Source: Acidobacteriota bacterium (GTDB lineage Bacteria > Acidobacteriota > Terriglobia > Terriglobales > Acidobacteriaceae). From it: a DNA stretch of 64,000 bases. Made by a program: the position numbers and the translations under genes. The stretch lies in contig JAJYVF010000018.1 in assembly GCA_021792135.1 (NCBI GenBank), positions 1 to 64,000 of the forward strand, given 5' to 3'. Positions 26,501-56,686 of this stretch are shown here, piece after piece. Position 1 is the first letter of the stretch; each line of letters starts with the position of its first letter. The notes below the pieces were generated by a model that saw only the letters and a list, made by a program, of their open reading frames with translations, had not been told where the DNA came from and did no database searches.

Positions 26501-26506
26501 GCGGCT

Positions 26507-30991: not shown

Positions 30992-30997
30992 TCAACG

Positions 30998-33898: not shown

Positions 33899-33912
33899 GA
33901 AAGAGGAAGAAA

Positions 33913-35154: not shown

Positions 35155-35236
35155 ACCGAACCGCAGAAACGACGCGAAGAATTCATCGTCCCTCGGATCG
35201 CATGATTCCCACTATTCACGGATCGCCCCTTGCACG

Positions 35237-38427: not shown

Positions 38428-39323
38428 ACCCAACTTCCCTGATGACCGAGCCGCTATCCACCCGGTACGTTGTGATCACTCCCGTGCGCGACGAGGAGGA
38501 GCATCTGACGGCGACCATCGAAAGCATGGTTCGGCAGATCGTCCTGCCGAAGCAGTGGATTATCGTCAACGATGGCTCGAAAGATGGTACCAGGGCCATC
38601 ATCGACAGCTATGCTGCCAGGTATTCCTGGATTACAGCAGTCCATCGCCCGGATCGTGGTTTTCGGAAGTCCGGCGGTGGCGTTGTCGAGGCGTTCAACG
38701 CCGGTTTGGCGGCCCTTACGGTAAGGGAATGGGACTTCATCGCGAAGTTCGATGGCGATCTGACCTTTGGTACCGAATATTTTGCGAGTTGTTTCGCCGA
38801 ATTTGCGGCCGATCCCTGCCTGGGCGTGGGTGGGGGCGTTATCTGCTATTTCGATTCGGACGGCTCGAAGACCTTCGAAGAGGCGCCTTCCTTTCACGTC
38901 CGGGGCGCAACCAAGATCTATCGGCGGGAGTGCTGGGAGGGAATCGGTGGTTTGCTCCCGGCACCCGGGTGGGATACCTTCGATGAAATCAAGGCCAACA
39001 GTCTGGGATGGAAAACGAGGAGCTTCCCTCACCTGCATCTCCTCCATCACCGCGAGACGGGCGCGGCCGACGGGAACTGGCGAACTTCAGTGAAATATGG
39101 GCGAGCTAACTATATCTGCGGCTACCATCCTCTTTTCATGCTCTGTAAATGTCTTCGGCGCATCGCGCAGAAGCCATATTTCACGGGCGCGGCCGGACTT
39201 ATCTACGGATTTGTGACCGGATACCTCCAACGCATACCTCAGGCCGGCGACCGAGCTACCATTGCCTACCTCAGGCGCGAGCAGGTGAATCGTCTCTGGG
39301 GCAGAGAAACGATCTGGCGCTGA
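38424..39323 (+). CDS. Glycosyltransferase family 2
   Basis: A 299-residue GT-A enzyme. The start overlaps the preceding stop (ATGA). Motifs are YVVITPVRDEEEHLTATIES, WIIVNDGSKDGT, FIAKFDGDLTFG (metal-binding DxD) and PAPGWDTFDEIKANSLGWKT, with the acidic acceptor-site residues. A hydrophobic C-terminal stretch (YFTGAAGLIYGFVTGYL) suggests membrane association. It acts on the lipid-linked repeat unit; donor unknown. Confidence 0.88.
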   Translation: MNPTSLMTEPLSTRYVVITPVRDEEEHLTATIESMVRQIVLPKQWIIVNDGSKDGTRAIIDSYAARYSWITAVHRPDRGFRKSGGGVVEAFNAGLAALTVREWDFIAKFDGDLTFGTEYFASCFAEFAADPCLGVGGGVICYFDSDGSKTFEEAPSFHVRGATKIYRRECWEGIGGLLPAPGWDTFDEIKANSLGWKTRSFPHLHLLHHRETGAADGNWRTSVKYGRANYICGYHPLFMLCKCLRRIAQKPYFTGAAGLIYGFVTGYLQRIPQAGDRATIAYLRREQVNRLWGRETIWR

Positions 39324-39385
39324 GCCGGCTGGCAGTGGTCCATACGATTCACCGGTAACTTTTCCTTCCTGAAACTGAATCTGCG

Positions 39386-41287
39386 ATGTGCGGCATCTGC
39401 GGCATCCTGAAAATCGATTCCTCAGCCTCCATTCACGCTGGTGTGATCCGGGCGATGGCGGATTCTATTCGCCATCGCGGTCCGGATGATGAGGGCTATC
39501 ATGTCGCGGGGCCGGTCGGGCTGGGCTTTCGGCGGCTCTCGATCATCGATCTCAGTACCGGCCACCAGCCGCTGTCGAATGAGGACGGGACCGTCTGGAT
39601 CGTTTTCAATGGCGAGATCTATAACTATCAGGAGCTCCGCGCCGATCTGCTGAAGCGGGGACATATCTTCAAAACAAAAACTGACACGGAAGTCATCGTT
39701 CATCTGTATGAAGAATTCGGTCCTGATTGTCTGCAGAAGCTCCGCGGGATGTTTGCATTCGCCATCTGGGACAGCCGGACGAAGACGCTCCTGCTGGCCA
39801 GAGACCGGGTCGGCATTAAGCCCCTCTACTATGCCCTGACCGGCGAGTCTCTGGTCTTTGCATCGGAAATCAAAGCAATTCTTGCCGATCCCTCGGTCGA
39901 CCGGGAGATGGCGCCGGAACTGATCGACCGCTTCCTGACATTTCTGTACGTTCCCGGCGAAGAAACCCTGCTGAAAGGAGTTCGCAAACTCGCTCCGGGG
40001 CATTACCTGCTGGTGAAGAACGGGCAGATCACGATCCGGCAATATTGGGATCTGAATTTCGCCGAGTCCTTCGGGGAGAAATCGGCTGCGCAGGCGGAGG
40101 AGGAACTGCTTGCTTTGCTCGCCGAGACGGTTCGGCTGCACATGATTGCCGACGTCCCGGTGGGCGTCCTGCTGAGTGGTGGGGTCGACTCAACCGGGGT
40201 CCTGAGCCTCGCGACCAGGGAGACGGACAAGCGGATCAGCAGCTTCACGGTCGGGTTTTGCGCCGGGCAGGTGGCCGATGAACGGCCGTATGCCAGGCTG
40301 GCCGCAGAGAAGTACGGCACGGATCATCACGAGATCACGATCACGCCGCAGGATTTCGCCGCGTTTCTGCCCAGTTATGTCTGGTACATGGAAGAGCCGG
40401 TCTGCGAGCCGCCCGCGATTGCGCTGTACTACGTATCGAAACTGGCCCGGCAACACGTTGCGGTGCTTCTCTCGGGCGAGGGCGGCGACGAGGCGTTCGC
40501 GGGGTACAGCAATTATCGGAACCTCCTGTGGCTCGAGCGGATGAAGCGGGGTGGTTCGCTGCTGAATTCCGCACTGGCCGGCGGAATGTCCGTTGCCGAT
40601 TCGGGATTCGGCCTGACGAAATTCAGAAAATATGTTCCGCTCATGACGGAGCGTTTTCCGGACTACTACTACAGCCGCACCTCGAATCCGTATCTGACCA
40701 CCGGCAACGGACTGGGCACCGTCTATTCGGCAGAGTTCCAGAGCGCCATCAATCGCGAGCACAGCGTGGCGCCGGTGCGGATTCTGCAGGCGCGGATGCG
40801 GGGAAAAGACACGCTGCACACGATGCTGTACATCGACACGAAGACCTGGTTGCCGGACGACCTGCTGATCAAGGCAGACAAGATGACGATGGCGAACTCG
40901 ATCGAACTTCGGGTTCCTCTCCTCGATCACAAGGTACTGGAATTTGCGGCATCTTTGCCTCCACGGCAGAAGGTCAACGGGAGAAATACGAAATACATTC
41001 TGAAAAAGGCCCTGTCGCAGCGGATACCTCATCAGATTCGGGACCGAAAGAAAGCCGGTTTTCCCGTTCCATATGCCTCCTGGATGCGCACCGAGCTGAA
41101 AGACATGGTGCGCGACGTGCTGCTGGACTCGAAGACCTGCGAACGGGGCTACTTTCGCAGGGATGCAGTGGAGAAGCTGCTCGCAGAAAATTCCAGCGGC
41201 AGGGACTTCTCGAAGGAAATCTTCTCTCTGCTCAGTCTCGAACTGTGGCAGCGGACCTTCATCGAAGGAGAGCGCGTTGTTCTCTAA
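39386..41287 (+). CDS. asnB: Glutamine-dependent asparagine synthetase-type amidotransferase
   Basis: A 633-residue enzyme. It starts MCGICGIL, so Cys2 becomes the N-terminal nucleophile of the glutaminase domain; SIRHRGPDDEG, LGFRRLSIIDLS and FNGEIYNYQELR follow. The synthetase domain has the ATP motif VLLSGGVDSTGV and the segment LLSGEGGDEAFAGYS. Copies in polysaccharide loci often amidate sugar acids such as uronic acids rather than make asparagine, and the Wlb-like uronic-acid genes nearby fit this. The gene overlaps the next one by 11 bases. Confidence 0.92.
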   Translation: MCGICGILKIDSSASIHAGVIRAMADSIRHRGPDDEGYHVAGPVGLGFRRLSIIDLSTGHQPLSNEDGTVWIVFNGEIYNYQELRADLLKRGHIFKTKTDTEVIVHLYEEFGPDCLQKLRGMFAFAIWDSRTKTLLLARDRVGIKPLYYALTGESLVFASEIKAILADPSVDREMAPELIDRFLTFLYVPGEETLLKGVRKLAPGHYLLVKNGQITIRQYWDLNFAESFGEKSAAQAEEELLALLAETVRLHMIADVPVGVLLSGGVDSTGVLSLATRETDKRISSFTVGFCAGQVADERPYARLAAEKYGTDHHEITITPQDFAAFLPSYVWYMEEPVCEPPAIALYYVSKLARQHVAVLLSGEGGDEAFAGYSNYRNLLWLERMKRGGSLLNSALAGGMSVADSGFGLTKFRKYVPLMTERFPDYYYSRTSNPYLTTGNGLGTVYSAEFQSAINREHSVAPVRILQARMRGKDTLHTMLYIDTKTWLPDDLLIKADKMTMANSIELRVPLLDHKVLEFAASLPPRQKVNGRNTKYILKKALSQRIPHQIRDRKKAGFPVPYASWMRTELKDMVRDVLLDSKTCERGYFRRDAVEKLLAENSSGRDFSKEIFSLLSLELWQRTFIEGERVVL

Positions 41288-42356
41288 GCGGCTGCGCGAG
41301 GTCGCAATCGGGGCAGGGGCGGGCGTCTCCGGGCGGATTCCGGGCCGTTTTGGGATGGCTCATCTGCTCAACAGGTCCTGCTCGCTGCGCTGCGTGGTCT
41401 TCCATCATATTGCCGCCCAGCCGACGCCCTTCACCACAGGAATCAGAGTCACGGTTTCGCCGCGCACCTTCGAGAGCGCCCTGCAATTCCTGACGAAGCA
41501 CTATACGCCTGTAAGCCTGGACGATGTGCTGACAGACTGTGGGGGACGCGGGCTGCCGCTTCGTCCGGTCCTGCTGACCTTCGACGATGCGTACGCGTCG
41601 ATCGCCGAAGTTGCGGCTCCGCTGTGCCGGAAGTATGGGGTGCCTGCGGTCTTCTTCGTCAACGCTGCATTTGTCAACAATCGCCGGATGGCCCCCGACA
41701 ATCTTGTCTGCTATGTCGCCCATTTCGCTGGCATGGATGTGGTGAATGCGGCGATCCGAGAAGTTCCGGGGCGGGAAGACGTGGTATGTCGTGGTTTGAC
41801 GGAAGTGTTCGGGAGCTTTTTCCCCACATTGTCTCTCAAGCAGCGCGAACTGTTTCTCCATGCGCTCTGCCGCCTCGCGGAGATCGACGACAGTCGACTC
41901 GCGAAAGAAGCAAATCTGTACCTGACGGGTCATCAGCTTCGGAATCTGGGATGCTACGGCTTCGAAGTGGGAAACCATACTTACAGCCACACGCATTGCC
42001 GTTCTCTCTCCCATCGTGAGGTCGTCGCGGAGATCATGACCAACAAGTCCGAGCTGGAATCCATCTGTGGCAGGCGGGTACGCTCCTTCAGTCAGCCGTA
42101 TGGCTCATCGAAGGACGTGACGGGAACCGTCGAGGAGTGCCTCCGGCAGTCGGGACACGAGGCAGTGTTTCTCAGCGAAAGTGTAGCCAACCAGAGGAAC
42201 GCAAACCCGTTTCGACTGGATCGGGTCAGCACCTGCGCGGCGAGCGATGAAGCCTTGTTCTTTGAGCTGGAGGTGCTGCCGAGGCTTCGCGCCCACCGCA
42301 ATCAGCTACATCGGAAGGCCGGCTCGGTTCAGGCGGCTGAGCTTCGTCCCCAGTGA
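41277..42356 (+). CDS. NodB-type polysaccharide deacetylase
   Basis: A 359-residue carbohydrate esterase 4-like enzyme. Motif 1 is VLLTFDDAYASI (catalytic Asp plus metal Asp), motif 2 is EVGNHTYSHTH (metal His pair) and motif 3 is RSFSQPYGSS. The start is TTG 41277, six bases after AAGGAG and inside the end of asnB; the frame's upstream extension only shadows asnB. No signal peptide is seen, so it probably acts on lipid-linked sugars in the cytoplasm or at the membrane. About 100 residues are inserted between motifs 1 and 2. Confidence 0.85.
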   Translation: MFSKRLREVAIGAGAGVSGRIPGRFGMAHLLNRSCSLRCVVFHHIAAQPTPFTTGIRVTVSPRTFESALQFLTKHYTPVSLDDVLTDCGGRGLPLRPVLLTFDDAYASIAEVAAPLCRKYGVPAVFFVNAAFVNNRRMAPDNLVCYVAHFAGMDVVNAAIREVPGREDVVCRGLTEVFGSFFPTLSLKQRELFLHALCRLAEIDDSRLAKEANLYLTGHQLRNLGCYGFEVGNHTYSHTHCRSLSHREVVAEIMTNKSELESICGRRVRSFSQPYGSSKDVTGTVEECLRQSGHEAVFLSESVANQRNANPFRLDRVSTCAASDEALFFELEVLPRLRAHRNQLHRKAGSVQAAELRPQ

Positions 42357-42427
42357 GGAATTGCCTGTAACGCCCGCGCATCAACAGCAAAACGCACGAA
42401 CCAACAGATTGGTGAGGAACGGAGACA

Positions 42428-42664
42428 ATGACTCGCGAAGAATTTCTGCTTGAAATGGACGGAATGCTTGGGCTGCGGCCAGGCACGCTGCGCGGCACGG
42501 AAAAGCTTGAGGAACTCGAGAGCTGGGATTCGACTGCCCTGGTCGGCATGATCGTGCTGGCGGAATCCGCGAACGACACGGAGATTTCCCTCGATGAGGT
42601 TGTCGGTTGCTCAACGGTTGGGGACCTGTTACGAATTGCAGGTGTCGAGGGCAACTGCTGCTGA
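42428..42664 (+). CDS. Acyl carrier protein
   Basis: A 78-residue acidic helical protein. The phosphopantetheine site is Ser35 in LESWDSTALVGM, matching the DS(L/x) motif, and the rest fits the four-helix ACP fold (FLLEMDGMLGL, ISLDEVVGCSTVGDLL). It lies 84 bases before an FkbH-like gene. In known pairs, FkbH loads a glyceryl group from 1,3-bisphosphoglycerate onto its ACP, so this ACP probably carries the group that decorates the polysaccharide. It ends in two cysteines (GNCC), which is unusual. Confidence 0.88.
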   Translation: MTREEFLLEMDGMLGLRPGTLRGTEKLEELESWDSTALVGMIVLAESANDTEISLDEVVGCSTVGDLLRIAGVEGNCC

Positions 42665-42748
42665 ACGGCCGGGCTCTTCACGCAAACAGGAAACCCTGGC
42701 TGAGAGTACGACAGGGGTCGACACCGGGATCAGTGGAGGTTCATCGGG

Positions 42749-44632
42749 TTGACTCCGGAGACTCTGCACATGCAAGAAGAAATTCTTCGAGAGCTTAGAT
42801 TCCCGGCGACCGCTGCCAGTATCCTGCGCAAGCGGCAGCAGCTCAGGAAGGAACTGCTGGCGCAGCCGAACCTCTTACAGAAGAGGATCGCTATCCTCGG
42901 CGGCTCGACGACCACGGAAGTCCGGAGCATGCTGGAATTGTTTTTACTGGCCCATGGAATCGAGCCGGCGTTTTATGAGTCCGGATATAACCGGTATGCA
43001 GAAGATGTTCTGTTCGATAACCCGCAGCTAACCAGCTTCCATCCGGACATCGTGTTTTTGCACACCGGGTGGCAGAATGTCTCAGAGTTCCCGGAACTGC
43101 TCGAATCCGGCGAGGAGGTGGAACAGCGTCTCTGTCGCGAAATCGGCCGATTCCAGACAATCTGGGAAAAGATTCACACCCAGCTTGGTGCGGTAATCGT
43201 TCAGAACAACTTCGACCTGCCTCGGCTGCGGCCTCTGGGCAATCTTGACGGGTCAGAGACTTACGGGCGAGTGAGCTTCTTAATGAGGCTCAATGCTGAA
43301 TTTGCGGCTTACGCCCGCACCCATCAGCATTTTCTGATCAACGATATTCATTACCTCTCCGCGCAGATGGGTCTGGATGCCTGGCACGGCCACACATACT
43401 GGTACAACTTCCACATGGCTGTGACCCCGGCAGCCACAGTGGCTCTCGCGCGCAATGTGGCGGGCATCATCAAAGCGGTCTTCGGGAAGTCCAGAAAGTG
43501 TCTTGTCCTGGACCTCGACAACACTCTCTGGGGCGGGGTGATCGGCGATGACGGAGTACAGAATCTTATCCTCGGGCGCGATCACCCGGTCGGCGAAGCG
43601 TTTCTCGATTTCCAGCGGTATGTGAAAGCACTGCAGCGGCGAGGGGTGATCCTGGCCGTCTGTTCGAAAAATGATCCCGAAAACGCGAAGGCTGGGTTTG
43701 ATCACCCGGACGGCATACTCAAGCTGGAAGACTTCAGCGCATTCAAGGCGAACTGGAATCCCAAGCCCGACAATATCCGCGAGATCGCCGCAGAGCTCAA
43801 CATCGGGCTGGACAGTATGGTCTTCGTGGACGACAACCCGGCCGAGCGTGCGCTGGTGGCCAGCCAGCTTCCCGAGGTGGCCACTCCGGAAGTCGGCACA
43901 AACGCCGCTCGGTTCGCGGAGATTCTGGAATCCGAGTACTTTTTCGAAACGCATCGAGTGGTGCAGGATGATCTCGGGCGTTCGGCGTATTACGGTTCCA
44001 ACGCCCAGCGCAGTGCATCGCAGGCGACGTTCCGCGACTACGGCGAATATCTCCTCTCGCTGGAGATGAAGGCCGAAATTGCGTCCTTCACGCCTGTGTA
44101 TCTCGAGCGGATCACGCAGCTTATTAACAAGACGAATCAGTTCAACCTGACGACCCGCCGCTACACGAGCGCTGAAGTCGAAGAGATTGCTCAGAATCCT
44201 GGGTACGTCACCCTCTATGGTCGCCTGGCCGACCGATTTGGAGACAACGGCCTGGTCACGGTTCTGATCGGGCGCGTCGCCGGGGAGGCTCTGGAGATTG
44301 ACCTCTGGCTCATGAGCTGCCGCGTTCTGAATCGCGAAATGGAACTTTCCATGTTCGATGCCCTCGTCGAAGCCTGCCAGAGCCGAGGCCTGCGCCGCAT
44401 CGTCGGGACTTACACACCGTCAAAAAAGAACGCGATGGTGGCGGATCACTACGCGAAGCTCGGCTTTCAGCGAATCGAGAGCGCATCGGAAGGCCAGACT
44501 TCGTGGGTCTGGGAGATTCCCGAAGTCTATTTGCCGGGGCACCGCTCGATCGTCCGTATCAGCAAATCCGCCGCTGCGGACGAGGCGCGGGCGGGAACCG
44601 CGACAGCCGTTCTTGAGTCCGTGGGCGCCTGA
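42749..44632 (+). CDS. FkbH-like HAD-IIIC family protein
   Basis: A 627-residue three-part protein. Residues 45-240 resemble an SGNH-like domain (RIAILGGSTTTEVRSMLELF, VFLHTGWQNVSEFPE, WHGHTYWYNFHMAVT). The HAD domain has LDLDNTLWGGVIGDDG with Asp255 and Asp257, AVCSKNDPENA and VFVDDNPAERALV. A GNAT-like C-terminal domain follows (INKTNQFNLTTRRYTSAEVE, DLWLMSCRVLNREMELSMFD). FkbH proteins dephosphorylate 1,3-bisphosphoglycerate and move the glyceryl group to an ACP. The adjacent ACP supports this, though the final acceptor here would be a sugar. TTG 42749 follows GGAGG by nine bases; ATG 42770 is an equally fair start. Confidence 0.87.
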   Translation: MTPETLHMQEEILRELRFPATAASILRKRQQLRKELLAQPNLLQKRIAILGGSTTTEVRSMLELFLLAHGIEPAFYESGYNRYAEDVLFDNPQLTSFHPDIVFLHTGWQNVSEFPELLESGEEVEQRLCREIGRFQTIWEKIHTQLGAVIVQNNFDLPRLRPLGNLDGSETYGRVSFLMRLNAEFAAYARTHQHFLINDIHYLSAQMGLDAWHGHTYWYNFHMAVTPAATVALARNVAGIIKAVFGKSRKCLVLDLDNTLWGGVIGDDGVQNLILGRDHPVGEAFLDFQRYVKALQRRGVILAVCSKNDPENAKAGFDHPDGILKLEDFSAFKANWNPKPDNIREIAAELNIGLDSMVFVDDNPAERALVASQLPEVATPEVGTNAARFAEILESEYFFETHRVVQDDLGRSAYYGSNAQRSASQATFRDYGEYLLSLEMKAEIASFTPVYLERITQLINKTNQFNLTTRRYTSAEVEEIAQNPGYVTLYGRLADRFGDNGLVTVLIGRVAGEALEIDLWLMSCRVLNREMELSMFDALVEACQSRGLRRIVGTYTPSKKNAMVADHYAKLGFQRIESASEGQTSWVWEIPEVYLPGHRSIVRISKSAAADEARAGTATAVLESVGA

Positions 44633-44691
44633 GCCCGGAACGCCAGTTCATCGATATCGAACCGAACCCACACCAATTTCCCCGGGATTGC

Positions 44692-45789
44692 ATGAGAGAA
44701 AACATCTGGCAGGTCGAAGTCGATCGGATAGGCGACGGCGAATGGTCGCACCTGATCGAACTCTTCGAGGACGCCAATATCTATCAGACGGCAGCGTACG
44801 GCGGGGTGCGATGGGGCGCTCGCAGCCTCAGCCGGATCGTTCTCAGACACGGTGGGGAGATCGTAGCTGCTGCCCAGTTACGCATTGTCCAACCGACCCC
44901 TCTCAGATTCGGTATAGCTTATCTGCGCTGGGGACCCCTGTGGGAGCGGCGCGGCTGTCCGGCAGACGCTGAGGTTTCTGGGCGCATGGCCCGAGCCATT
45001 CAGGAAGAGTACGTGACGAGGAGAAAGCTTTTCCTGCGCATCGTGCCCAACGCCTTCGCCGGAACTTCCCGAGCCGCAGTGTTTCAGTCAGCGTTCTCTG
45101 GACTTGAACAGCAGCATTCCGACTCAGGGACTAACTACCGGACCTTCGTGCTCGATCTGAGCCCGCCACTCGAGGAGATTCGGAAGCGCCTCGACCCGAA
45201 GTGGCGCAACAAGCTGAGCGGAGCCGAGAGAAATAGCCTCACGGTCGTTGCCGGCGATGGGGTCGAGGAATACCGTGACTTCTGTCAGATTTATTCCGAG
45301 ATGCGCAGGCGGAAGACGTTTGAGACTACGGTGGATGCCGCCGAGTTTGAGCGCATCCAGCAGACTCTTCCTCCCTCTCAGCGGATGCGGGTTCTGCTTT
45401 GCCGAGAGAAGGGAACTCTGGTGGCCGGTCTGGTAGCTTCCGCTCTGGGCAACTCAGCGATCTACCTGCTCGGCGCAACCAGCGATGCCGGGCTCAATGC
45501 CAAGGGAGCTTACCTTCTGCAGTGGACCCTGATTGGCTGGCTGCGCGAGCGCGGCGTCGCCTGGTATGACCTGGGCGGCATCGATCCGGAAGTCAATCCG
45601 GGTGTGTACCAGTTCAAGAAGGGGCTTTCGGGCCTGGACACCACACAGATCAGCCCTCTGACGGCTTCCGGAAGCGCGGTTTCGTCCTGGATGGTTGGCG
45701 CAGGCTCCTGCGTACAGCGCATGCTTCGCCGTTCTTCCCAACCTGCAACCAGCAGCACCCTGGTCAAACAGCCAGCCGCAAGAGGCTGA
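44692..45789 (+). CDS. FemAB-like GNAT-fold acyltransferase
   Basis: A 365-residue protein with the two-lobed GNAT fold of FemAB enzymes, which transfer aminoacyl groups from tRNA to peptidoglycan. Visible elements are WSHLIELFEDANIYQTAAY, IAYLRWGPLWERRG, WRNKLSGAERNSLTVVAG, VAGLVASALGNSAIYLLGAT, and the closing GAYLLQWTLIGWLRERGVAW and DLGGIDPEVNPGVYQFKKGL. In polysaccharide loci similar proteins are thought to acylate sugars. Lying between FkbH and other acyltransferases, it is a candidate for moving the ACP-bound or aminoacyl group to the polymer. Confidence 0.82.
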   Translation: MRENIWQVEVDRIGDGEWSHLIELFEDANIYQTAAYGGVRWGARSLSRIVLRHGGEIVAAAQLRIVQPTPLRFGIAYLRWGPLWERRGCPADAEVSGRMARAIQEEYVTRRKLFLRIVPNAFAGTSRAAVFQSAFSGLEQQHSDSGTNYRTFVLDLSPPLEEIRKRLDPKWRNKLSGAERNSLTVVAGDGVEEYRDFCQIYSEMRRRKTFETTVDAAEFERIQQTLPPSQRMRVLLCREKGTLVAGLVASALGNSAIYLLGATSDAGLNAKGAYLLQWTLIGWLRERGVAWYDLGGIDPEVNPGVYQFKKGLSGLDTTQISPLTASGSAVSSWMVGAGSCVQRMLRRSSQPATSSTLVKQPAARG

Positions 45790-45793
45790 TCGT

Positions 45794-46759
45794 ATGCCGA
45801 CTGCTACCAATCCCATAGATATTTCCGTGGTCATCGTCGCCTGGAATGCGAAGAAATACGTCGAGCTCTGTCTCCAGAGCCTCATCGACGCTCCGCCGCG
45901 GCGCAGCATGGAGGTCTTCGTCGTCGACAACGCCTCCGGAGACGGCACTTCGGAGATGATCGAGACCCGCTTTCCGTGGGTCAGGCTGATCAAAAGCCCC
46001 GAGAACCTGGGATTTTCACGAGGCAATAATGTCGCCATCCGCCAAACTACAGGCCGCTATGTCGCGCTCGTCAATCCCGACGTCATCGTCTTCCCCGGCT
46101 GCCTCGATGCTCTCGCGGACTTTCTTGAGGAGAACCCAAAGGTGGGGAATGTAGGTCCGAGGGTCTTCAATCCGGATATGACCCAGCAGAGCACCTGCCG
46201 CAGGTTTCCCACACTCTGGAACAACTTCTGCTCCGCCTCCCGGCTGGAAGGCATCTTCAAAGGATCCGGCTTCTTCGCCGGCGAGCACATGTTCTATTTC
46301 CCGCATGACCGCACGCTGTCGGTCGATGTCATCGTGGGCTGCTTCTCGATGATTCGCCGCGAAGCGCTCGATCAGGTGGGGCTTCTCGACGAGGGTTTGT
46401 TTATGTACGGCGACGATGTCGACTGGTGCAGACGTGCCCGCAATGCAGGATGGGATGTGGTCTTCTACCCCGGCGCCCGGGCCATCCACGACCGCGGCAA
46501 AACCACCGCTCCTTTCCCGGTCCACTTCGCGGTCGCACAGCAGCGCTCGGTACTGCATTACTGGAAGAAGCATCATTCGCCTCTGGAAGTGCTGGGAATC
46601 CGGAGCATCATGGTCTTCCATCACTTGCTGCGATACATGATTGCTCTGGTGTCGTCGGCCACTCGCCGCGGGAACGGTGCGCATCCGCAAGTCCGGAGGC
46701 AGGTCAGCAGTGCCTGCCTGCGGGAAATTCTGGTCGGCGGCAGCACGAATAAAGGCTGA
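45794..46759 (+). CDS. Glycosyltransferase family 2 (rhamnosyltransferase-like)
   Basis: A 321-residue GT-A enzyme. Motifs are ISVVIVAWNAKKYVELCLQS, VFVVDNASGDGT, NLGFSRGNNVAIRQTTGRYV and ALVNPDVIV (DxD-type), then VDVIVGCFSMIRREALDQVG and YGDDVDWCRRARNAGWDVVF. This subgroup includes many rhamnosyltransferases, which fits the RfbC/RfbD genes. ATG 45794 lies five bases after the FemAB-like stop; the longer frame from 45695 overlaps it and is rejected. Confidence 0.9.
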   Translation: MPTATNPIDISVVIVAWNAKKYVELCLQSLIDAPPRRSMEVFVVDNASGDGTSEMIETRFPWVRLIKSPENLGFSRGNNVAIRQTTGRYVALVNPDVIVFPGCLDALADFLEENPKVGNVGPRVFNPDMTQQSTCRRFPTLWNNFCSASRLEGIFKGSGFFAGEHMFYFPHDRTLSVDVIVGCFSMIRREALDQVGLLDEGLFMYGDDVDWCRRARNAGWDVVFYPGARAIHDRGKTTAPFPVHFAVAQQRSVLHYWKKHHSPLEVLGIRSIMVFHHLLRYMIALVSSATRRGNGAHPQVRRQVSSACLREILVGGSTNKG

Positions 46760-46767
46760 AGGTCAGA

Positions 46768-47481
46768 ATGAGCATTTCCGCTATGTTCGCGCGTCTCGTG
46801 GAGTACCAGAGACGCCACGGATTCCGGGCGACCCTGCGCCGTGCCGGTGTGGCTGCCAGACGAGCGGTTCTGGCTCGCGATATGGTCGTCTTCTACTGCG
46901 ATCTCGACCCCGGCAAGCTCCGCCCCGTCAGGATCCCCGCTGGTTTCTCCATCGAGCGCGTTGTATCTCTGGCGGATTTCAGCAGCGCCGATTTTGAACA
47001 GGTGACCTCATTCTGGAACCCGAAGCTCGCCAGCGCCCATATGCGCGAGCGATTCGCCCGGGGAGCGGTGCTCTGGCTGGTCAAATCCGGGGAATCTGTG
47101 GCCGGCTATGGGTGGACGCTGCGGGGAGGTTCCATCGAACCGTATTACTTCCCGCTGGGCACGGATGATGTTCAGCTCTTTGATTTCTACGTCGCGCCGA
47201 AGTTCCGCGGTCGGGCAATCCACTGGTTGCTCACCGGCCATATTCTGCAGGTGCTGGCTGCTGAGGGTGATGGCAGAGCATTTGCCGATACGGGGGAATG
47301 GAATGACGCCCAACTGGCATCGTTCCGGATGACGAAGTTACGGCTTCTGGGACGAGTCAGAGCTTTCCGGGTATTCGGCCGGGTTCTGACCCACTGGAAA
47401 CTGAATGAGCCTGTCCGCGAACCCCGGCCCGCTGTGGCTCCGACCGGCAAGGTGACAGGACTGCTGAGGTCGAATGAATAG
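46768..47481 (+). CDS. GNAT-family N-acetyltransferase
   Basis: A 237-residue protein with a GNAT fold in its middle (VAGYGWTLRGGSIEPYYFPL, VQLFDFYVAPKFRGRAIHWL with the acyl-CoA-binding RxxGxG/A-like loop, ADTGEWNDAQLASFRMTKLR). The N-terminal 30 residues are basic and helical. It overlaps the VOC gene by eight bases and starts eight bases after the GT2 gene, so all are in one operon. It probably acylates a sugar amine or acts on a carrier-bound intermediate. Confidence 0.82.
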   Translation: MSISAMFARLVEYQRRHGFRATLRRAGVAARRAVLARDMVVFYCDLDPGKLRPVRIPAGFSIERVVSLADFSSADFEQVTSFWNPKLASAHMRERFARGAVLWLVKSGESVAGYGWTLRGGSIEPYYFPLGTDDVQLFDFYVAPKFRGRAIHWLLTGHILQVLAAEGDGRAFADTGEWNDAQLASFRMTKLRLLGRVRAFRVFGRVLTHWKLNEPVREPRPAVAPTGKVTGLLRSNE

Positions 47482-47944
47482 CGCCGCGTCCCCCGAAATG
47501 ACTCCTCCGGGAGAAGTGAGGCTCCACCACGTCGGATTTGTCCTGAACTCGATTCAGAACGGCGCCGATTCGTTCGCGCGTTCCCTCGGAGCGACTTGGG
47601 ACGGCAACATCATCTTCGATCCTGTCCAGAAGGTGCGGGTCACCTTTTTTCAGGGCGCCCACCCGCAAGACTCTCTGATTGAACTGGTGGAGCCGGGCGG
47701 TCCGGATTCGCCGGTTTCGCGCTTCCTGGCTGCCGGCGGTGGCCTGCATCACCTCTGCTATGAAGTCGAAGACCTGGAAGGACACCTCCGTTTTTGCAAA
47801 TCTGCCGGTACCTTGGTAATCCGCCAACCTGTTCCTGCCGTAGCATTTGGAGGACGCCGCATCGCCTGGGCGATCACCCGGCAGAAGCTGCTGGTGGAGT
47901 TCCTGGAGCGCGAATCGGCCCCGGCCGGGAGCATGCCCAGTTGA
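47474..47944 (+). CDS. VOC-family (glyoxalase/methylmalonyl-CoA epimerase-like) protein
   Basis: A 156-residue two-module vicinal-oxygen-chelate protein. Metal-ligand candidates are LHHVGFVL (His), SLIELVEP (Glu), LHHLCYEV (His) and LLVEFLE (Glu), the usual H/E/H/E set of the epimerase group. It ends the ACP/FkbH block and may epimerise a carrier- or CoA-linked acyl group. The start lies inside the GNAT gene end. The link to acyl decoration is inference. Confidence 0.83.
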   Translation: MNSAASPEMTPPGEVRLHHVGFVLNSIQNGADSFARSLGATWDGNIIFDPVQKVRVTFFQGAHPQDSLIELVEPGGPDSPVSRFLAAGGGLHHLCYEVEDLEGHLRFCKSAGTLVIRQPVPAVAFGGRRIAWAITRQKLLVEFLERESAPAGSMPS

Positions 47945-48407
47945 CAGAGACTCAGGGCTCGATTACGGTAAACCGAGTTGGGACTAGACGGTATCCGGCT
48001 TCCCCTGTTGTTGGGACGTTCGGGTCCGAGGCAGGATTCCGCAGCCCAATCTGAACAATCAGGAGCCCTCAGGCGGCATGGCCCTGCCGTCAGGCCTAAT
48101 TTTGGTACTGACGTAATCTGTTGGTAACCAAACTTCCTCGATTCTCATATTCCTGCCGGTATCATGAGACGAAACCAACGAGAGACTGCAAAAGTCCTGG
48201 GCCAAAGACCTCAAATAGAAGGTCCGTGATACCGATGACAAACAGGCATTGATACTCCCGTCATTGCTGTCTGTGTGTGGTTGTCCGGACCGGGAGCGAA
48301 GTTTGATCGAATTTAATCCGGGTATATCAGTCGACCGCCACGACTCTGGGTCGCCCCTAAGCACCTTTGCCGCCACCTCCAACCTTCCCCGCCGGATTCA
48401 GCAACGA
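47945..48407. other. Intergenic region, probable internal promoter
   Basis: These 463 bases break the otherwise tight operon. No gene is convincing. The stretch from about 48090 to 48180 is AT-rich (cctaattttggtactgacgtaatctg) and is a good place for a promoter serving the secreted protein and later genes. No terminator hairpin with a U run was seen. Confidence 0.4.
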
Positions 48408-50024
48408 ATGCGGCTTTCCATCTCTTTGCTTCTTTTGGTGCTTCCGTGCTGTGCCTTGGCACAGGGGGGGAGCTGCCCGTCCAACTGGAATTCCATCGAT
48501 CCAAACGGGAACGTGGTCGGCGTCGCATCCTACGCTGGGATCAAGAGCTGCTACTACGCCTCGAAATCCATCGGCTCGGACAGCAAATACGACGGAACCT
48601 CGGAGACGGTGAACGGAACCCACGGTCCCTTCGCTCATATTCCCGGGATGCAGGGCTGCTCTGGCAACTGCGCCAATGTCACTCCGGCCGCAGGTGAGGG
48701 CTTCATCATGCGAGGAGGCGATGCCTGGTCGGGCAGCGATCTGGGCGTGAACTGGAACTGGAGCGGCAGTGGTACCGGGAGCCAGATCTACGTTGGCGTT
48801 GACCAGAACTGGTATAACTCCAGCGCTTGCGGGTCCTCCTGGTGCCGGCCAATCTGGAACTTCTCCAGCACGAACGCGAACGCCTTCCTCGCCGATGGCG
48901 GGTCCAAGTATTGGTGGTTCGACAACGTCGAAATCACAGCGCTGTGCAATCAGGAGAACGGCGTGTACGTGCAGGGCGCAACCAACATCCGAGCCTCGCA
49001 GCTATATTTCCATGGCTGGACCCACTGCACGAATTCCGATAACGTGGGGTTTTTCTCGCAGGGAGGCCCCGGCTCGATGGCCGATCACAACGTGATTGAC
49101 GGATCGGATTCCAGCAAGAACACCTTCAACGCGTTCTACTCCTATTGGTCCTCTATCCAGTACAACGTGATCAAATATGTCGTCTCGGGACTGATTGGGT
49201 CCAGTGATGTCGTTCACGACAACGTACTTTCCAATACGGTCACTTCGGCAGATGGCGACCATTGCAACGGGTTCTTTACTTTCTCGCCTCTCAGCGGTAA
49301 TAGCCAGCTCATCTACAACAATGTTGTGGACATGGGAACGGGCTGCCCCGGCGGCGTACAGATGTGGTTCAACGGCAACAGCGGGACCGACTCCAGCTGG
49401 ATTGGTTACGGATTTGGAAACATCATCTATAACACCACCGGCGGAAACCTGGTCAACTTCGGAAATCACGGGACCGGGAATTACGGAAAATACTACTTCT
49501 TCAATAACACTGTGGACTGCACCAACGGTGGGTGCGACGGAACTCCCTCCAATGGTCCGTATTGGACGATGTACGACCAAAACAACCAGGTAATTAACGG
49601 ATCATATATCCCTCTTGAGGCTCCCTCGGGTGGGACGTCTCTGGTCTGTAATGATGGGTCTGGGAGCGGTTGTACGGATCTCAGTCAGAGCGAATCTTCG
49701 AACTACAGCTCGGCTGGCCCAGCTCCTTATCAACCAGCGAGTTCCTGCACGGCTTCGAGTTGCCCGACGGATGGAGCCGGCACGAATCTGAGCAGCGCGG
49801 TTTGCTCCGGCCTTTCCTCCATCAATGCCGACGCTTATAACGCGTGCCAGAGAGCGACCACTGCTGGGGTCGCTTACAACACCACCACGCACTCAATAAC
49901 TGGCCCGGCCGTCAAGCCGGTGGCTCGGCCGTCGGGTAAATGGGATATCGGCGCCTACCAAGTTGGAAGTTCCAACGGCCCCGCACCGGTTACCAACCTG
50001 ACGGGAAGCGTGGTTGCCCAGTAG
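48408..50024 (+). CDS. Secreted Asn/Gly/Ser/Cys-rich protein, probably beta-helical
   Basis: A 538-residue exported protein. The signal peptide is MRLSISLLLLVLPCCALAQ. The mature part is rich in Asn, Gly, Ser, Trp, Tyr and Cys. It shows right-handed beta-helix-type repeats (FDNVEITALCNQENGVYVQG, MADHNVIDGSDSSKNTF, IQYNVIKYVVSG, LIYNNVVDMGTG, YYFFNNTVDCTNGG). Such folds are common in polysaccharide lyases, epimerases and tail-spike-like proteins, so a polymer-trimming or polymer-binding role is plausible. No catalytic motif is identified. The DIGAYQ motif near the end is typical of choice-of-anchor/beta-helix proteins. Upstream frame to 48249 is not used. Confidence 0.7.
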   Translation: MRLSISLLLLVLPCCALAQGGSCPSNWNSIDPNGNVVGVASYAGIKSCYYASKSIGSDSKYDGTSETVNGTHGPFAHIPGMQGCSGNCANVTPAAGEGFIMRGGDAWSGSDLGVNWNWSGSGTGSQIYVGVDQNWYNSSACGSSWCRPIWNFSSTNANAFLADGGSKYWWFDNVEITALCNQENGVYVQGATNIRASQLYFHGWTHCTNSDNVGFFSQGGPGSMADHNVIDGSDSSKNTFNAFYSYWSSIQYNVIKYVVSGLIGSSDVVHDNVLSNTVTSADGDHCNGFFTFSPLSGNSQLIYNNVVDMGTGCPGGVQMWFNGNSGTDSSWIGYGFGNIIYNTTGGNLVNFGNHGTGNYGKYYFFNNTVDCTNGGCDGTPSNGPYWTMYDQNNQVINGSYIPLEAPSGGTSLVCNDGSGSGCTDLSQSESSNYSSAGPAPYQPASSCTASSCPTDGAGTNLSSAVCSGLSSINADAYNACQRATTAGVAYNTTTHSITGPAVKPVARPSGKWDIGAYQVGSSNGPAPVTNLTGSVVAQ

Positions 50025-50044
50025 TTAGCTGGTGAACACCAACG

Positions 50045-50078
50045 GCTGCGGAGTTCCGGTTTTGCGCGACTCCGCAGC
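50045..50078 (+). terminator. Strong hairpin after the secreted protein gene
   Basis: GCTGCGGAGT (50045-50054) pairs perfectly with ACTCCGCAGC (50069-50078) around a 14-base loop, 20 bases after the stop codon. The downstream sequence gccatcctcgttctcc lacks a U run, so it may act as a weak terminator or protect the mRNA end. Confidence 0.5.
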
Positions 50079-50200
50079 GCCATCCTCGTTCTCCCCTGTA
50101 GATTCCTTCCATTCAGCTTTCGCCAACAGCGAGTCGAGTGCTCCTGCTGTTTAGCGAACCGTCGCGCAGGCAAATTGCGCGGCTTCCGCGCATCTGAGTC

Positions 50201-51583
50201 ATGCAGCCCAAACACCTCTTTTTTGGCGGCGGAGCAGCCGAAACGTTTCTAAACCCTCTGGTTGCGGTTTGGATGTTGATTGCTATCGCGCTGATCCTGA
50301 CCCTTCCCCGCAACAAGGTGATCCTCCCGTTTTTCCTGGCCTTCTTCACCATACCTTGGGCCCAGGTCATTCTGATCGGGCCGCTGCATTTCCCGGTGCT
50401 GCGAATTCTGATCCTCGCCGGCATGGTGCGGCGGACGATCACTGGCAGCAGGGACCCGGGAGGAAGATATCCAGGAGGATTCAACGGACTGGATCGGGTC
50501 ACGATCCTGTGGACGATATCGGCCTTCGTCGTTGTCTCTCTGCAGTGGATGGAACTGCAGTCCACCATTAAGTTTGTCGGCGACCTGATGGATTCGCTTT
50601 TCGGCTACCTGGTGGTGCGCTATCTGATTCCCGACCGCGACACCGTACGCAGGACAGTCATGAGCCTCGGCTTGGTTTCCCTCATTGTGGGCGCCTGCAT
50701 GATGAGCGAGCAGTTCACTCACCACAATGTATTCGCAGCATTTGGCGCCAACGAGCCCGCGATTCGTGACGGCCATCTGCGCGCCGAAGGTTCACTGGGC
50801 ACGCTCTTTGGGGGAACGTTCGCGGGAGTCCTGATTCCCATGTTCCTCTGGTTGTGGAAAGAGAAGGACGGCAGGAGAGCAGCGGCGATCGGACTGATCG
50901 GGGCGACGGCCATGGTAGCCGCCTCCCACGCCAGCACCTCCTGGCTGGCTTATGCATCCGGGCTTCTCGGGCTGGCGTTCTGGCCCCTGCGCAAAAAAAT
51001 GCGGCTGATCCGCTGGGGCATCGTTGTCACTCTGACCGGGTTACACCTGGTGATGCACGGCCCGGTGTGGTCGCTGATCGAAAAAGTGGACGTCACGGGC
51101 GGATCATCCAGCTACCACCGCTACATGCTGGTGGACAACTGCATCCGCCACTTCAGCGACTGGTGGTTTCTGGGCTACAAGTTTTACGGCAGCTGGGGAT
51201 TCGATATGTGGGATCTCTGCAATCAGTTCGTGGCCGTGGCCCTGACCGGCGGACTCATCACTCTGGTGCTCTTCATCATGATCTACAGCCGGAGCCTCGG
51301 ACTGATTGGCAGGACCAGAAAGCGGGTAGAGGGAAACCGGTCGGAAGAATGGCTGCTGTGGTGCCTGGGTTCCACCCTGTTTGCGAACATCGTTGCGTCC
51401 TTCGGGATCAATTACATGATTCAACTACAGATGCTGCTCTTCCCGCTGCTCGCTTGTGTGTCTGTTGTTGCTGCGACTGCCAAAGTGCCGGTCGTGGCCA
51501 AGGCAAAGCCAGCCGGCGAGGTTCTGGCGCCTCCGCTGCCGATACCGGCCCGGGCGTTCGCTGCAGTCAGGGGAATGCAATGA
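50201..51583 (+). CDS. O-antigen ligase/polymerase-like (Wzy-type) membrane protein
   Basis: A 460-residue protein with about eleven membrane helices (VAVWMLIAIALILTL, VILPFFLAFFTIPWAQVILI, VVALTGGLITLVLFIMIY-like near the end). A large external loop (about 290-350) contains SSYHRYMLVDNCIRHFSDWW, resembling the R-containing loop of Wzy/WaaL proteins. It would join repeat units on the outer face of the inner membrane. No other polymerase is present in the locus, which supports the assignment. Its stop overlaps the next start (ATGA). Confidence 0.75.
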   Translation: MQPKHLFFGGGAAETFLNPLVAVWMLIAIALILTLPRNKVILPFFLAFFTIPWAQVILIGPLHFPVLRILILAGMVRRTITGSRDPGGRYPGGFNGLDRVTILWTISAFVVVSLQWMELQSTIKFVGDLMDSLFGYLVVRYLIPDRDTVRRTVMSLGLVSLIVGACMMSEQFTHHNVFAAFGANEPAIRDGHLRAEGSLGTLFGGTFAGVLIPMFLWLWKEKDGRRAAAIGLIGATAMVAASHASTSWLAYASGLLGLAFWPLRKKMRLIRWGIVVTLTGLHLVMHGPVWSLIEKVDVTGGSSSYHRYMLVDNCIRHFSDWWFLGYKFYGSWGFDMWDLCNQFVAVALTGGLITLVLFIMIYSRSLGLIGRTRKRVEGNRSEEWLLWCLGSTLFANIVASFGINYMIQLQMLLFPLLACVSVVAATAKVPVVAKAKPAGEVLAPPLPIPARAFAAVRGMQ

Positions 51584-52815
51584 AAACCGAGGCGGTTCGG
51601 GTCCTGTATAGCTTTCCGCTGCGTCTGGGTGCGGATCGCATTTGCTATACGGCCTGGCAGCAGGTAAATGGACTGGCCGCTGCCGGAGCGGACCTGGTCG
51701 TTTGTGCGGCCTCGATCGGCAGGCCCGTTGAGCCAGCTGCGCGAGTCGCTCCCACGCTCGCCCGCGGTCGATATCGGCTGCCCTATCGGCTGTTCGGAAC
51801 CACGCGCGCTGTGGCTCTTCATGACTGGATCACGGCTCGGCGGCTCGAAAAGCTGGCAGGGACGATCGATATCGTCCATACCTGGCCCACAGGTGCACTG
51901 CGGACTCTGAAGACTGCAGCAAAGCTGGCTATTCCGACCGTGCTGGAGAGGCCGAATGCCAACACCCGCGTCGCCATGCTCCTCGTCAAGAATGAGTGCC
52001 AGCGGCTTGGAGTCGCTTTGCCCCCCGGTCATGAGCATGCCTACGACGAGCGCAAACTGCGAAGGGAAGAGGAGGAATATGAGCTTGCCGATCGCCTCCT
52101 CTGTCCGTCAGATTTCGTTGTTCGAACCTTTCTGGAGCGCGGCTATCCGGCAGGCAAGCTGGTTCGTCATCAATATGGGTTTGACGAGAAGCGCTATTTT
52201 CCCGGTGCGCAAATGGGCGAGGGCGGCGGGCTCCGTGTTCTTTTCGCGGGCGTCTGCGCCGTGCGCAAAGGGCTTCATTATGCGCTTGAGGCGTGGATCG
52301 CCTCCCCCGCATCGGAGCAGGGCACGTTTTCCATCGCGGGAGAATTTCTACCGGCTTACAGGGAACGCCTGAAATCGATGCTGGTTCACCCCAGTGTGAG
52401 GGTACTCGGTCATCGGAGTGATCTGCCGGACCTGATGCGCAACAGTGACATTTTGGTCCTGCCCAGCATTGAAGAAGGAAGCGCGTTGGTCACTTCTGAG
52501 GCGCGCGGCAGCGGATGCGTCCTTCTTGTCTCCGAGGCCGCAGGCGCAATTTGCCGACACATGGAAGATGCTCTGGTGCACAGAGTCGGAGATGTGCCGA
52601 CCCTGACCCGGCATTTTGCGATGCTCCACCAGGACCGGGCTCTTCTCGAGCGGCTGCGGACCGCGTCTCTCGCCGGTATTTCCAGTCTTACCTGGACGGC
52701 AGCCGGAGTCAGGCTTCTCGACGTCTACCGGGAAACGATTGAAGCGCACAAGGCAGCGCAGTCGGGAGTCGACGCTAAGTCCTGCAATCCTGTTTACGCG
52801 CACTCGCAGGTTTAG
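51580..52815 (+). CDS. Glycosyltransferase family 4-type
   Basis: A 411-residue GT-B enzyme starting at ATG 51580, which overlaps the Wzy-like stop. The N-terminal half includes IDIVHTWPTGALRTLKTAAK and VLERPNANTRVAML. The C-terminal half has RVLFAGVCAVRKGLHYALEA, VRVLGHRSDLPDLMRNSDIL and the donor-site stretch LPSIEEGSALVTSEARGSGC, with the EX7E glutamates. The longer frame back to 50854 shadows the polymerase gene. Sugar unknown. Confidence 0.88.
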   Translation: MKTEAVRVLYSFPLRLGADRICYTAWQQVNGLAAAGADLVVCAASIGRPVEPAARVAPTLARGRYRLPYRLFGTTRAVALHDWITARRLEKLAGTIDIVHTWPTGALRTLKTAAKLAIPTVLERPNANTRVAMLLVKNECQRLGVALPPGHEHAYDERKLRREEEEYELADRLLCPSDFVVRTFLERGYPAGKLVRHQYGFDEKRYFPGAQMGEGGGLRVLFAGVCAVRKGLHYALEAWIASPASEQGTFSIAGEFLPAYRERLKSMLVHPSVRVLGHRSDLPDLMRNSDILVLPSIEEGSALVTSEARGSGCVLLVSEAAGAICRHMEDALVHRVGDVPTLTRHFAMLHQDRALLERLRTASLAGISSLTWTAAGVRLLDVYRETIEAHKAAQSGVDAKSCNPVYAHSQV

Positions 52816-52824
52816 AAAGCCAGT

Positions 52825-53850
52825 ATGACAACTCCGCAAGCCGGCCCTGAAGACTACAGGATCTCGGTGGTCATCCCAACCTACAACCGGGCCGAGAAAG
52901 TTCGCCGGGCCGTCGAGAGTGTTCTCGCGCAGACGATCCGCGATCTGGAAGTCGTCGTCGTCGATGACGGATCGAGCGACGATACGGCACTCGTTCTTGA
53001 ACAGACCTTTGGCAAGCGCATCCGCTATTTTACCCAGCCGAACCAGGGCGCCAGTGTTGCGCGCAACCGCGGAATCGAGGAAGCCACAGGCGACTGGATC
53101 GCCTTTCTCGATTCCGATGATGTCTGGGAGGCGGAGAAGATCGAGTGCCAGCTGGATGCGCTGCGTCGCGTAGGGACCGAATGCGGAGCCTGTTATACCG
53201 ATGTCCGGTTCTTCAACCACTCCGAAACGCGCACGATGTTCGAGCTGGCGGAATCCAGCTATCGGCATGTGGGGCAGATCGGTGTCAACGGGGAAGCTCT
53301 GCGGCTGCTCGTGAGGCCGGGCGGCGCAGGCATGGTGATTTGTCTGTCGTCGCTGCTGGCGCGCAAAGAGGTGATCCGGGAGGCGGGGGGCTTCGATCGC
53401 GACCTGCTGTACAGCCAGGACAGCGAATTCATGTTCCGCCTGGCGATGGCGACTCCATTCTGTTTTGTCAACCGGCCGCTGACCGGGTTTGACCGTTCGC
53501 CCGCCGAAGATCGGCACGTCGGCGTCAGTTCTGTATGGAACACACGGGAGTTTTTCCTGCAGGATAGTCAGCTCAGGCTGGAACGCCTGCTGCGTCTCAC
53601 CGAAAATCAGCCGGCCGCGGTTCGTGACGTGGTGCGTGGGCAGCTCGGCGCGATTCACAGCGGGTGGGTAAACTGTCATCTCAGCCGCGGGCAATATGGC
53701 AAGGCTCGCGCCTCCGCCTGGCTGGCTCTGCGGATGACCCCCTCTGTCAACTATGCCGCCAAGTGGCTGCTGACCTGGATGAGTCCGGGACTGGCCGTGC
53801 GAACCATCCGGCAGCGAGAGAGTAAGAAAGCGTCAGCTTTTACAGTTTAG
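52825..53850 (+). CDS. Glycosyltransferase family 2
   Basis: A 341-residue GT-A enzyme. Motifs are ISVVIPTYNRAEKVRRAVES, VVVVDDGSSDDT, NQGASVARNRGIEEATGDWI and AFLDSDDVWEAEK (DxD), followed by the acceptor-side segment GGFDRDLLYSQDSEFMFRLA. It lies nine bases after the previous gene. It probably adds a side-chain or backbone sugar; the donor is not predictable. Confidence 0.9.
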   Translation: MTTPQAGPEDYRISVVIPTYNRAEKVRRAVESVLAQTIRDLEVVVVDDGSSDDTALVLEQTFGKRIRYFTQPNQGASVARNRGIEEATGDWIAFLDSDDVWEAEKIECQLDALRRVGTECGACYTDVRFFNHSETRTMFELAESSYRHVGQIGVNGEALRLLVRPGGAGMVICLSSLLARKEVIREAGGFDRDLLYSQDSEFMFRLAMATPFCFVNRPLTGFDRSPAEDRHVGVSSVWNTREFFLQDSQLRLERLLRLTENQPAAVRDVVRGQLGAIHSGWVNCHLSRGQYGKARASAWLALRMTPSVNYAAKWLLTWMSPGLAVRTIRQRESKKASAFTV

Positions 53851-53870
53851 AATGCGAGGCGAGAACCGGG

Positions 53871-54863: not shown

Positions 54864-54915
54864 ATGACCATCTCTGCGAGGATAGACCCCACTCATCTTC
54901 ACGAGAACAGCATCA

Positions 54916-55590: not shown

Positions 55591-55611
55591 TTACACGCCG
55601 GAGTAGCAGAG

Positions 55612-56676: not shown

Positions 56677-56686
56677 CGGAAGTCAC

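Follow-up and report, generated by a model that had tools for sequence, protein, structure and literature searches.

The 64,000-nucleotide stretch of DNA analyzed here (hereafter, the window) comes from an Acidobacteriota bacterium (contig JAJYVF010000018.1, positions 1 to 64,000) and carries the genes of an acyl carrier protein (ACP), an FkbH-like enzyme, and a VOC protein. Comparison with other genomes indicated that these three form one module, which would serve an exopolysaccharide cluster as an added source of acyl units. In the reading that we favor, with a probability of roughly 0.5, FkbH would load a C3 unit, probably glyceryl, on the ACP, the VOC protein would change its C2 configuration, and an acyltransferase would pass the unit to the exopolysaccharide. 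The module lies in a block of six genes (42428-47944), all on the + strand, in the order ACP, FkbH, FemAB, glycosyltransferase family 2 (GT2), GNAT, and VOC. A preliminary description of this block had placed ACP, FkbH, FemAB, GNAT, and VOC at the right coordinates according to the open reading frames (ORFs); these genes are real, and the GT2 gene between FemAB and GNAT (PF00535, 91.1 bits) had been omitted. Other loci and genomes are designated below by L and G labels, respectively (G180 = L153; G134 = L154; G160 = L155).

The linkage of the VOC protein (156 aa, methylmalonyl-CoA-epimerase-like; 47474..47944, + strand) to FkbH was analyzed in 200 genomes of the order, where 37 strong VOC matches were obtained (<1e-18, the window's own excluded). 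All 37 came from genomes having FkbH, and 30 were located within 5 kb of an FkbH match in the same genome, compared with approximately 0.3% per match expected from uniform placement. Weaker VOC matches were FkbH-linked in 2 of 26 cases. Viewed in reverse, a strong VOC match lay within 5 kb of 32 of the 114 FkbH matches in these genomes. In a second order (that of a Methylomonas genome), six VOC matches were found in 201 genomes, and every one was 252–375 bp from FkbH; one of them (G412, which is L009) was in the profile used, another (G610, with the coordinates of L012) resembles two profile rows, and four are new. Among the linked loci that were read, the arrangement met most often was FkbH-ACP-VOC, and VOC-FkbH-ACP occurred in some.

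The VOC protein scored 61.2 bits against PF13669 (Pfam cut-off, 27) and 51.1 bits against the methylmalonyl-CoA epimerase model TIGR03081, below its cut-off of 114.95 bits. The AlphaFold2 (AF2) model, based on a 27-row alignment, had a predicted local distance difference test score (pLDDT) of 93.6. Its closest Foldseek matches were 3hdp and 2qh0 (both "glyoxalase" proteins of Clostridium acetobutylicum), followed by 3oa4, and its query-normalized TM-scores against methylmalonyl-CoA epimerases were approximately 0.65–0.76. Of 34 sequences, 33 have residue H19, 32 have E70, and all 34 have H93 and E142. In 2qh0, 3hdp, and 3oa4, the corresponding alignment columns hold His/Glu, and these four residues would be the metal ligands. 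By analogy, the protein would work like an acyl-thioester epimerase, though it is not filed as a methylmalonyl-CoA epimerase. The epimerase-like VOC protein of the preliminary description agrees with this predicted fold and with the FkbH-linked relatives in two orders.

The FkbH-like enzyme (627 aa; 42749..44632, + strand) matched TIGR01686 of NCBIfam with 288.8 bits (cut-off, 146.65) and was the sole match to this model in the window's genome. It is composed of an SGNH-like N-terminal part, a HAD-IIIC domain, and the C-terminal part of the FkbH model, which is presumably GNAT-like; the N-terminal match is weak (FkbH_N of Pfam, 16.5 bits vs. a cut-off of 27). BF1531 (3slr, residues 42-402; E value, 6.9e-56) was the only solved chain matching FkbH at E 0.01, and the nearest named loci by FkbH sequence were the Acidobacteriota metagenome-assembled genomes L004 and L005. 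The window enzyme was aligned with FkbH sequences from the fetched loci, 127 sequences in all when the window fragment L149, the duplicate loci L134, L146, and L174, and four domains from large proteins are counted. It keeps every position that is invariant in this alignment, among others D255, D257, T259, S306, K307, N308, K339, D361, D362, and S523-C524-R525. The HAD motif residues and the conserved C-terminal cysteine C524 are both present, and we assume that this cysteine carries the acyl group in the FkbH family. On the FkbH tree, the four domains in large proteins (1315–2850 aa), presumed to be polyketide synthases (PKS) or nonribosomal peptide synthetases (NRPS), formed their own clade apart from the window. 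The FkbH-like assignment made at the outset was borne out by the model score and the intact residues, and the enzyme is proposed, by analogy, as the loader of the ACP.

The ACP (78 aa; 42428..42664, + strand) is a small ORF with a sub-threshold PP-binding match. Homologues were identified in five other genomes with identities of 64, 65, 58, 51, and 36% (6 of 396 genomes including its own), and a profile representing ACPs that adjoin FkbH matched the protein with an E value of 4e-5. The serine of the W-D-S motif, probably the 4'-phosphopantetheine site (Ser35 in E-S-W-D-S), is kept in 17 of 17 aligned carrier sequences, the window included. Because of these homologues, the profile match, and the kept serine, the small ORF reads as a real gene of carrier type, as the dedicated carrier protein described earlier would require. 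The window's genome also gave one match to the phosphopantetheinyl transferase family PF01648. Companions of FkbH were counted in 98 loci, namely the window and 97 others retrieved by FkbH alone (after dropping the duplicates L134 and L146 and one of 99 loci in which FkbH runs off the end). In 88 of them, a profile-detected carrier protein was no more than 3 kb away from FkbH; therefore, FkbH and ACP constitute a stable pair. In G166, a deacetylase-ACP-FkbH arrangement extends up to the contig end. Relatives of the window ACP are also present at L198:9782-13076 and L199:9814-12795 (genomes G289 and G108, respectively).

The FemAB-like protein (365 aa; 44692..45789, + strand), the GT2 (45695..46759, + strand), and the GNAT acyltransferase (237 aa; 46768..47481, + strand) belong to the polysaccharide backbone and are separate from ACP-FkbH-VOC. 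They represent a different module because the G180 cluster has them without ACP, FkbH, and VOC. This nearly collinear cluster keeps the window order of GT4, GT2, asparagine-synthase-like gene, deacetylase, FemAB, GT2, and GNAT through to the hexapeptide protein at 54.9 kb, except that a gene related to the epimerase at 29.1 kb has moved; the G180 genome gave no FkbH match at E 1e-30 and no VOC match at E 1e-10. In G134, FemAB-GT2-GNAT was likewise found without ACP, FkbH, and VOC on the 20 kb read, and FkbH with ACP was located on another contig, from which service in trans is possible. L004 has the gene order of the window, and L005 has FemAB-GT2-GNAT-ACP-FkbH, so that the ACP-FkbH insertion sites differ within the same cluster type. 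The GT2 gene, which travels with FemAB and GNAT, may have its true start further 3' than the ORF start, given the overlap with the FemAB ORF. All six genes as one unit were rejected on the evidence of G180 and G134. The preliminary description was thus partly supported: it saw a real association and guessed the chemistry sensibly, and it drew the unit too wide. When other genomes were surveyed, the linkage recurred for ACP-FkbH-VOC, which is the supported unit, and FemAB-GT2-GNAT proved separable. The gene content, conserved residues, predicted VOC fold, recurrent linkage, and separability from FemAB-GT2 are results of the analysis itself.

Both FemAB and GNAT had been suggested as transferases. 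FemAB matched PF02388 with 49.4 bits (cut-off, 24), and its nearest solved relative by sequence is FemX (E value, 2.7e-13), consistent with FemAB/FemX homology. It is unlikely, and probably not correct, that FemAB is the dedicated transferase, as it occurs in the G180 cluster lacking ACP, FkbH, and VOC. GNAT matched PF00583 with 25.2 bits (cut-off, 20.7), and its model has a generic GNAT fold (pLDDT 80.4) that would be compatible with a phosphopantetheine thioester donor and does not name the donor. In G160 (L155:8631-12252), the order is FemAB-GT2-GNAT-ACP-GNAT, with a window-type ACP between two GNAT paralogues, and FkbH was not found on this 12-kb contig. On a tree of seven distinct GNAT sequences (three further rows being fragments of the same genes), the GNATs of the window, L004, and L005 and the second GNAT of G160 split from those of L153 and L154 and the first GNAT of G160 with a support of 0.991. 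The GNATs of L005 and the second of G160 adjoin the ACP, and those of the window and L004 are in a cluster with it. The informative case is G160, where both GNAT types surround one ACP. GNAT remains a candidate and is more likely than FemAB to be the best one for transfer from the ACP. Over the order, GNAT turned up in 4 genomes out of 200 in one search and in 5 out of 398 in another, and FemAB in 4 out of 200; each count includes the window's own genome, and both genes are too rare for linkage statistics.

Among the 98 loci, MaoC was present within 3 kb of FkbH in 62, SDR in 56, MBOAT in 28, and VOC in 11. VOC and MaoC were both found beside FkbH in one locus, VOC only in 10, MaoC only in 61, and neither in 26 (locus-level Fisher test, p = 1.5e-4, uncorrected for relatedness). 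The single locus with both MaoC-SDR and VOC beside FkbH-ACP is L138 (G153:C180). Because VOC and MaoC are rarely together beside FkbH, we infer that they act on the same acyl-ACP intermediate: MaoC and SDR would dehydrate and reduce the glyceryl unit, and VOC would only invert it. The MaoC/SDR form possibly delivers a lactyl-type unit, and an intact FkbH was ruled out as proof of a glyceryl unit on these companion counts. FkbH loci bearing MaoC/SDR (within L004-L083 and L129-L148) come from Bacteroidota, Firmicutes, Helicobacter, and Acidobacteriota, among others. On an FkbH tree of 123 sequences, which includes 16 loci fetched because of VOC and has several low-support nodes, the VOC label changes 12 times, compared with a mean of 24.7 and a minimum of 21 after shuffling. 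Because of these 12 changes, VOC has probably joined or been lost repeatedly.

In several loci, the trio is accompanied by an MBOAT acyltransferase. Sinorhizobium meliloti pSymB (CP140934.1; L200:4472-10353) has VOC, MBOAT, ACP, and FkbH together, approximately 5 kb upstream of capsule genes, and a plasmid of Rhodobacteraceae bacterium SC52 has the ACP-FkbH-VOC trio with MBOAT; profile checks confirmed the trio and MBOAT on both replicons. The MBOAT neighbor, annotated as "TonB-dependent receptor" in S. meliloti and "hypothetical" in SC52, reads like an SGNH-type partner. In the three Methylomonas/Methylococcaceae loci L009:259-5080, L012, and L025, FkbH-ACP-VOC is followed by MBOAT, and in L009 a 315-aa protein, by its sequence a putative SGNH partner, comes after MBOAT, in a Dlt/Alg-like layout with FkbH as the proposed loader. 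We tentatively suggest, as a reading less likely than not, that ACP-FkbH-VOC is a recurring non-polyketide module of Bacteria in which FkbH would bring glycolytic glycerate to the carrier protein, VOC would set its configuration, and interchangeable acyltransferases (MBOAT with its partner, GNAT, and others) would attach it to surface glycans. Where MaoC and SDR take the place of VOC, the related module would supply a C3 unit in reduced form, and some glyceroyl-type glycan groups without an assigned gene would be explained in this way.

The block is located inside an exopolysaccharide cluster (22843..63639, + strand), and the polysaccharide setting described earlier is therefore correct. According to Pfam and NCBIfam scans, the cluster encodes export proteins of the Wza and Wzz types. 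For assembly and modification of the polymer, it has a priming sugar transferase and several glycosyltransferases, together with a pyruvyltransferase, and a C-methyltransferase is accompanied by a protein resembling glucose-1-phosphate cytidylyltransferase. It also has a Gfo/Idh oxidoreductase, hexapeptide, and DegT set at 32427-35154, presumably an amino-sugar set, and its two hexapeptide proteins are at 33422-33898 and 54916-55590. Directly upstream of the block are an asparagine-synthase-like amidotransferase (39386..41287, + strand) and a polysaccharide deacetylase (41163..42356, + strand), flanking backbone genes identified by Pfam/NCBIfam and also present in L004, L005, and L153. Pfam detected neither a ketosynthase nor a β-ketoacyl-ACP synthase III (KAS III) among the 30 window proteins scanned, and the earlier statement that no polyketide synthase is present holds for those proteins. 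A profile search of window positions 30000-58000 for MBOAT was negative. The 591-aa protein at 48249-50024 has no NCBIfam or Pfam match at E 0.1 and has relatives in the clusters of L004, L005, L153, L154, and L155. Models for the ATPase and the amidotransferase associated with XrtA/PEP-CTERM gave sub-cut-off matches at 26507-27496 and 39386-41287, respectively, and the cluster may be related to exosortase-linked exopolysaccharide clusters.

The route inferred for the module, from its substrate and product through stereochemistry and metal binding to the transferase and the acceptor, would run as follows. FkbH would act on a C3 acid bearing phosphate, which by analogy would be 1,3-bisphosphoglycerate, its HAD domain would remove the phosphate, and the acyl group would be moved, probably via the invariant C524, to the ACP phosphopantetheine to give glyceryl-ACP. 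The putatively metal-binding VOC protein would epimerize this thioester at C2, and an acyltransferase, most likely the 237-aa GNAT, would transfer the acyl group to a repeat-unit sugar, perhaps at a free amine.

Several observations weigh against this route. Seven of the 37 strong VOC matches lack FkbH linkage. The window VOC does not directly follow the ACP as in most linked loci; in both the window and L004, it is 2.8 kb from FkbH, behind GNAT. The close relative L005 has ACP, FkbH, FemAB, GT2, and GNAT without VOC, and VOC is therefore dispensable there. The ACP is divergent, falls below the Pfam PP-binding cut-off (13.7 vs. 20.8 bits) and the NCBIfam cut-off (14.6 vs. 66 bits), and is located upstream of FkbH, mostly downstream elsewhere. 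As for GNAT, the FemAB tree also sets the window, L004, and L005 apart from the rest (support 0.931); therefore, the GNAT split is partly plain descent, and the tree alone is weak. Because G160 has a window-type ACP and two GNATs with no stand-alone FkbH found, this ACP type may be charged by another route. In G289 and G108, we take the protein after the ACP relative to be KAS III-like; in G108, the next protein is presumably a ketoisomerase, and a DegT aminotransferase match also follows. Because the G289 and G108 sets resemble the Flavobacterium psychrophilum O-antigen acylation set, they suggest by analogy that carrier proteins of this type take part in the acylation of sugars and are charged by more than one kind of loader.

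The strongest competitor, which we consider doubtful, retains the module and changes its cargo or its final step: the acyl unit would be lactyl-type or a longer phosphorylated acid, or the transferase would be one of the two hexapeptide proteins in the cluster (33422-33898 or 54916-55590) or FemAB. FkbH specificity is not readable from sequence, and the MaoC and SDR carried by many FkbH-ACP pairs in place of VOC would alter glyceryl. However, VOC without MaoC and SDR fits the simple epimerization of an unaltered α-hydroxy thioester, and FemAB occurs without ACP and FkbH. In a less probable reading still, the product of ACP-FkbH-VOC would be a small molecule, secreted or linked to lipid, that has no relation to the polymer, and the position of the module in the cluster would be incidental. 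FkbH-ACP pairs are indeed known from small-molecule pathways (accessible part of PMC7489565), and the module is inserted in an otherwise nearly collinear cluster; yet the scanned window proteins include no ketosynthase, MBOAT acyltransferases recur within 3 kb of FkbH (28/98 loci), and the insertion sites differ while remaining in the same cluster type. A chance neighborhood in a large cluster, with VOC and ACP being housekeeping or decayed genes, is very improbable. The sub-cut-off scores of ACP and of VOC against TIGR03081 would be expected from it, but the linkage counts in two orders already contradict chance, the ACP is conserved at 36–65% in five other genomes, and the conserved residues of FkbH are intact.

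If glyceryl supply by ACP-FkbH-VOC is confirmed, bacteria would generally be able to modify the sugars of their surface by a chemistry that has been associated chiefly with polyketide antibiotics. The module would also give a function to genes annotated as "HAD-IIIC family phosphatase" and to VOC proteins labeled glyoxalase, and it would offer candidate genes for glycerate-type groups without assigned biosynthesis, such as that in the accessible part of PMC6120980. This reading is testable in a tractable species because S. meliloti carries the trio near its capsule genes.

Glycans bearing glyceroyl groups have already been published, as has an ACP dedicated to the acylation of an O-antigen; the "little-described" of the preliminary description fits FkbH on glycans in the literature searched. 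In the available portions of the respective articles, the O-polysaccharide of F. psychrophilum has a dedicated ACP, wfpD, with the wfpG acyltransferase (PMC6519341); the O-glycan of Tannerella forsythia bears glyceroyl on pseudaminic acid, for which the candidate gene "remains elusive" (PMC6120980); and Campylobacter jejuni flagellin carries a di-O-methylglyceric acid derivative (PMC3958885). FkbH/ACP assignments do not appear in those portions of the T. forsythia and C. jejuni accounts. A Campylobacter hepaticus table lists a subfamily IIIC phosphatase, an oxoacyl synthase, and ACPs, with no pathway given in the text available (PMC5554493), and the accessible part of PMC13122637 concerns an NRPS pathway. 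In the open literature searched, which has partial coverage and beyond which prior work may exist, no FkbH-ACP route to glycans was recognized. What would be new here is the placement of polyketide-type C3 loading in a glycan setting.

Glyceryl-ACP formation by FkbH/ACP pairs has been proposed for tetronates, and the tetronate/methoxymalonyl pairs Mad7/Mad8 and Mad14/Mad12 of tetromadurin, as far as the available text goes, resemble the window in having an FkbH-like enzyme and a stand-alone ACP (PMC7489565). Unlike these pathways, the window shows no ketosynthase, KAS III, or oxidizing dehydrogenase pair beside FkbH, and its FkbH has a VOC companion and a polysaccharide setting. The tetronate glycerate-utilization operon has a FabH-like KAS III, an acyltransferase, and a dehydratase beside FkbH-ACP, and the methoxymalonyl-ACP pathway has two dehydrogenases and an O-methyltransferase there; neither set was found here, as the 30 window proteins scanned include no KAS III and the genes beside FkbH are polysaccharide deacetylase, ACP, FemAB, GT2, GNAT, and VOC. 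By contrast, the annotation of the Methylosinus plasmid L202 lists both KAS III and a type I PKS. The F. psychrophilum wfpD is, like the window ACP, cluster-specific, and it is the proposed acyl donor for an amino sugar in a polysaccharide of the cell surface; in the accessible part of that account, ketoacyl-ACP synthases are the presumed makers of its acyl group (PMC6519341), whereas the window FkbH would supply the unit from central metabolism. T. forsythia and C. jejuni have C3 glycerate-type groups on bacterial glycans, in other phyla and on other sugars than the window. The C. jejuni flagellin locus presumably has ACPs and an FkbH-like gene. O-acylation of the DltABCD/AlgI type uses a carrier-protein thioester with an MBOAT protein, and DltA is the adenylating loader. 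The S. meliloti, Rhodobacteraceae, and Methylomonas loci share the carrier protein and MBOAT with these systems, and their SGNH-type partner is a reading of the sequence; the difference is that FkbH would replace an adenylating loader such as DltA, and that the window region searched has no MBOAT. Finally, the window VOC shares the predicted fold and the conserved His/Glu positions of methylmalonyl-CoA epimerases (1jc4, 6wf6, and 3rmu) and differs from them in scoring below the TIGR03081 cut-off and in having relatives that are linked to FkbH-ACP.

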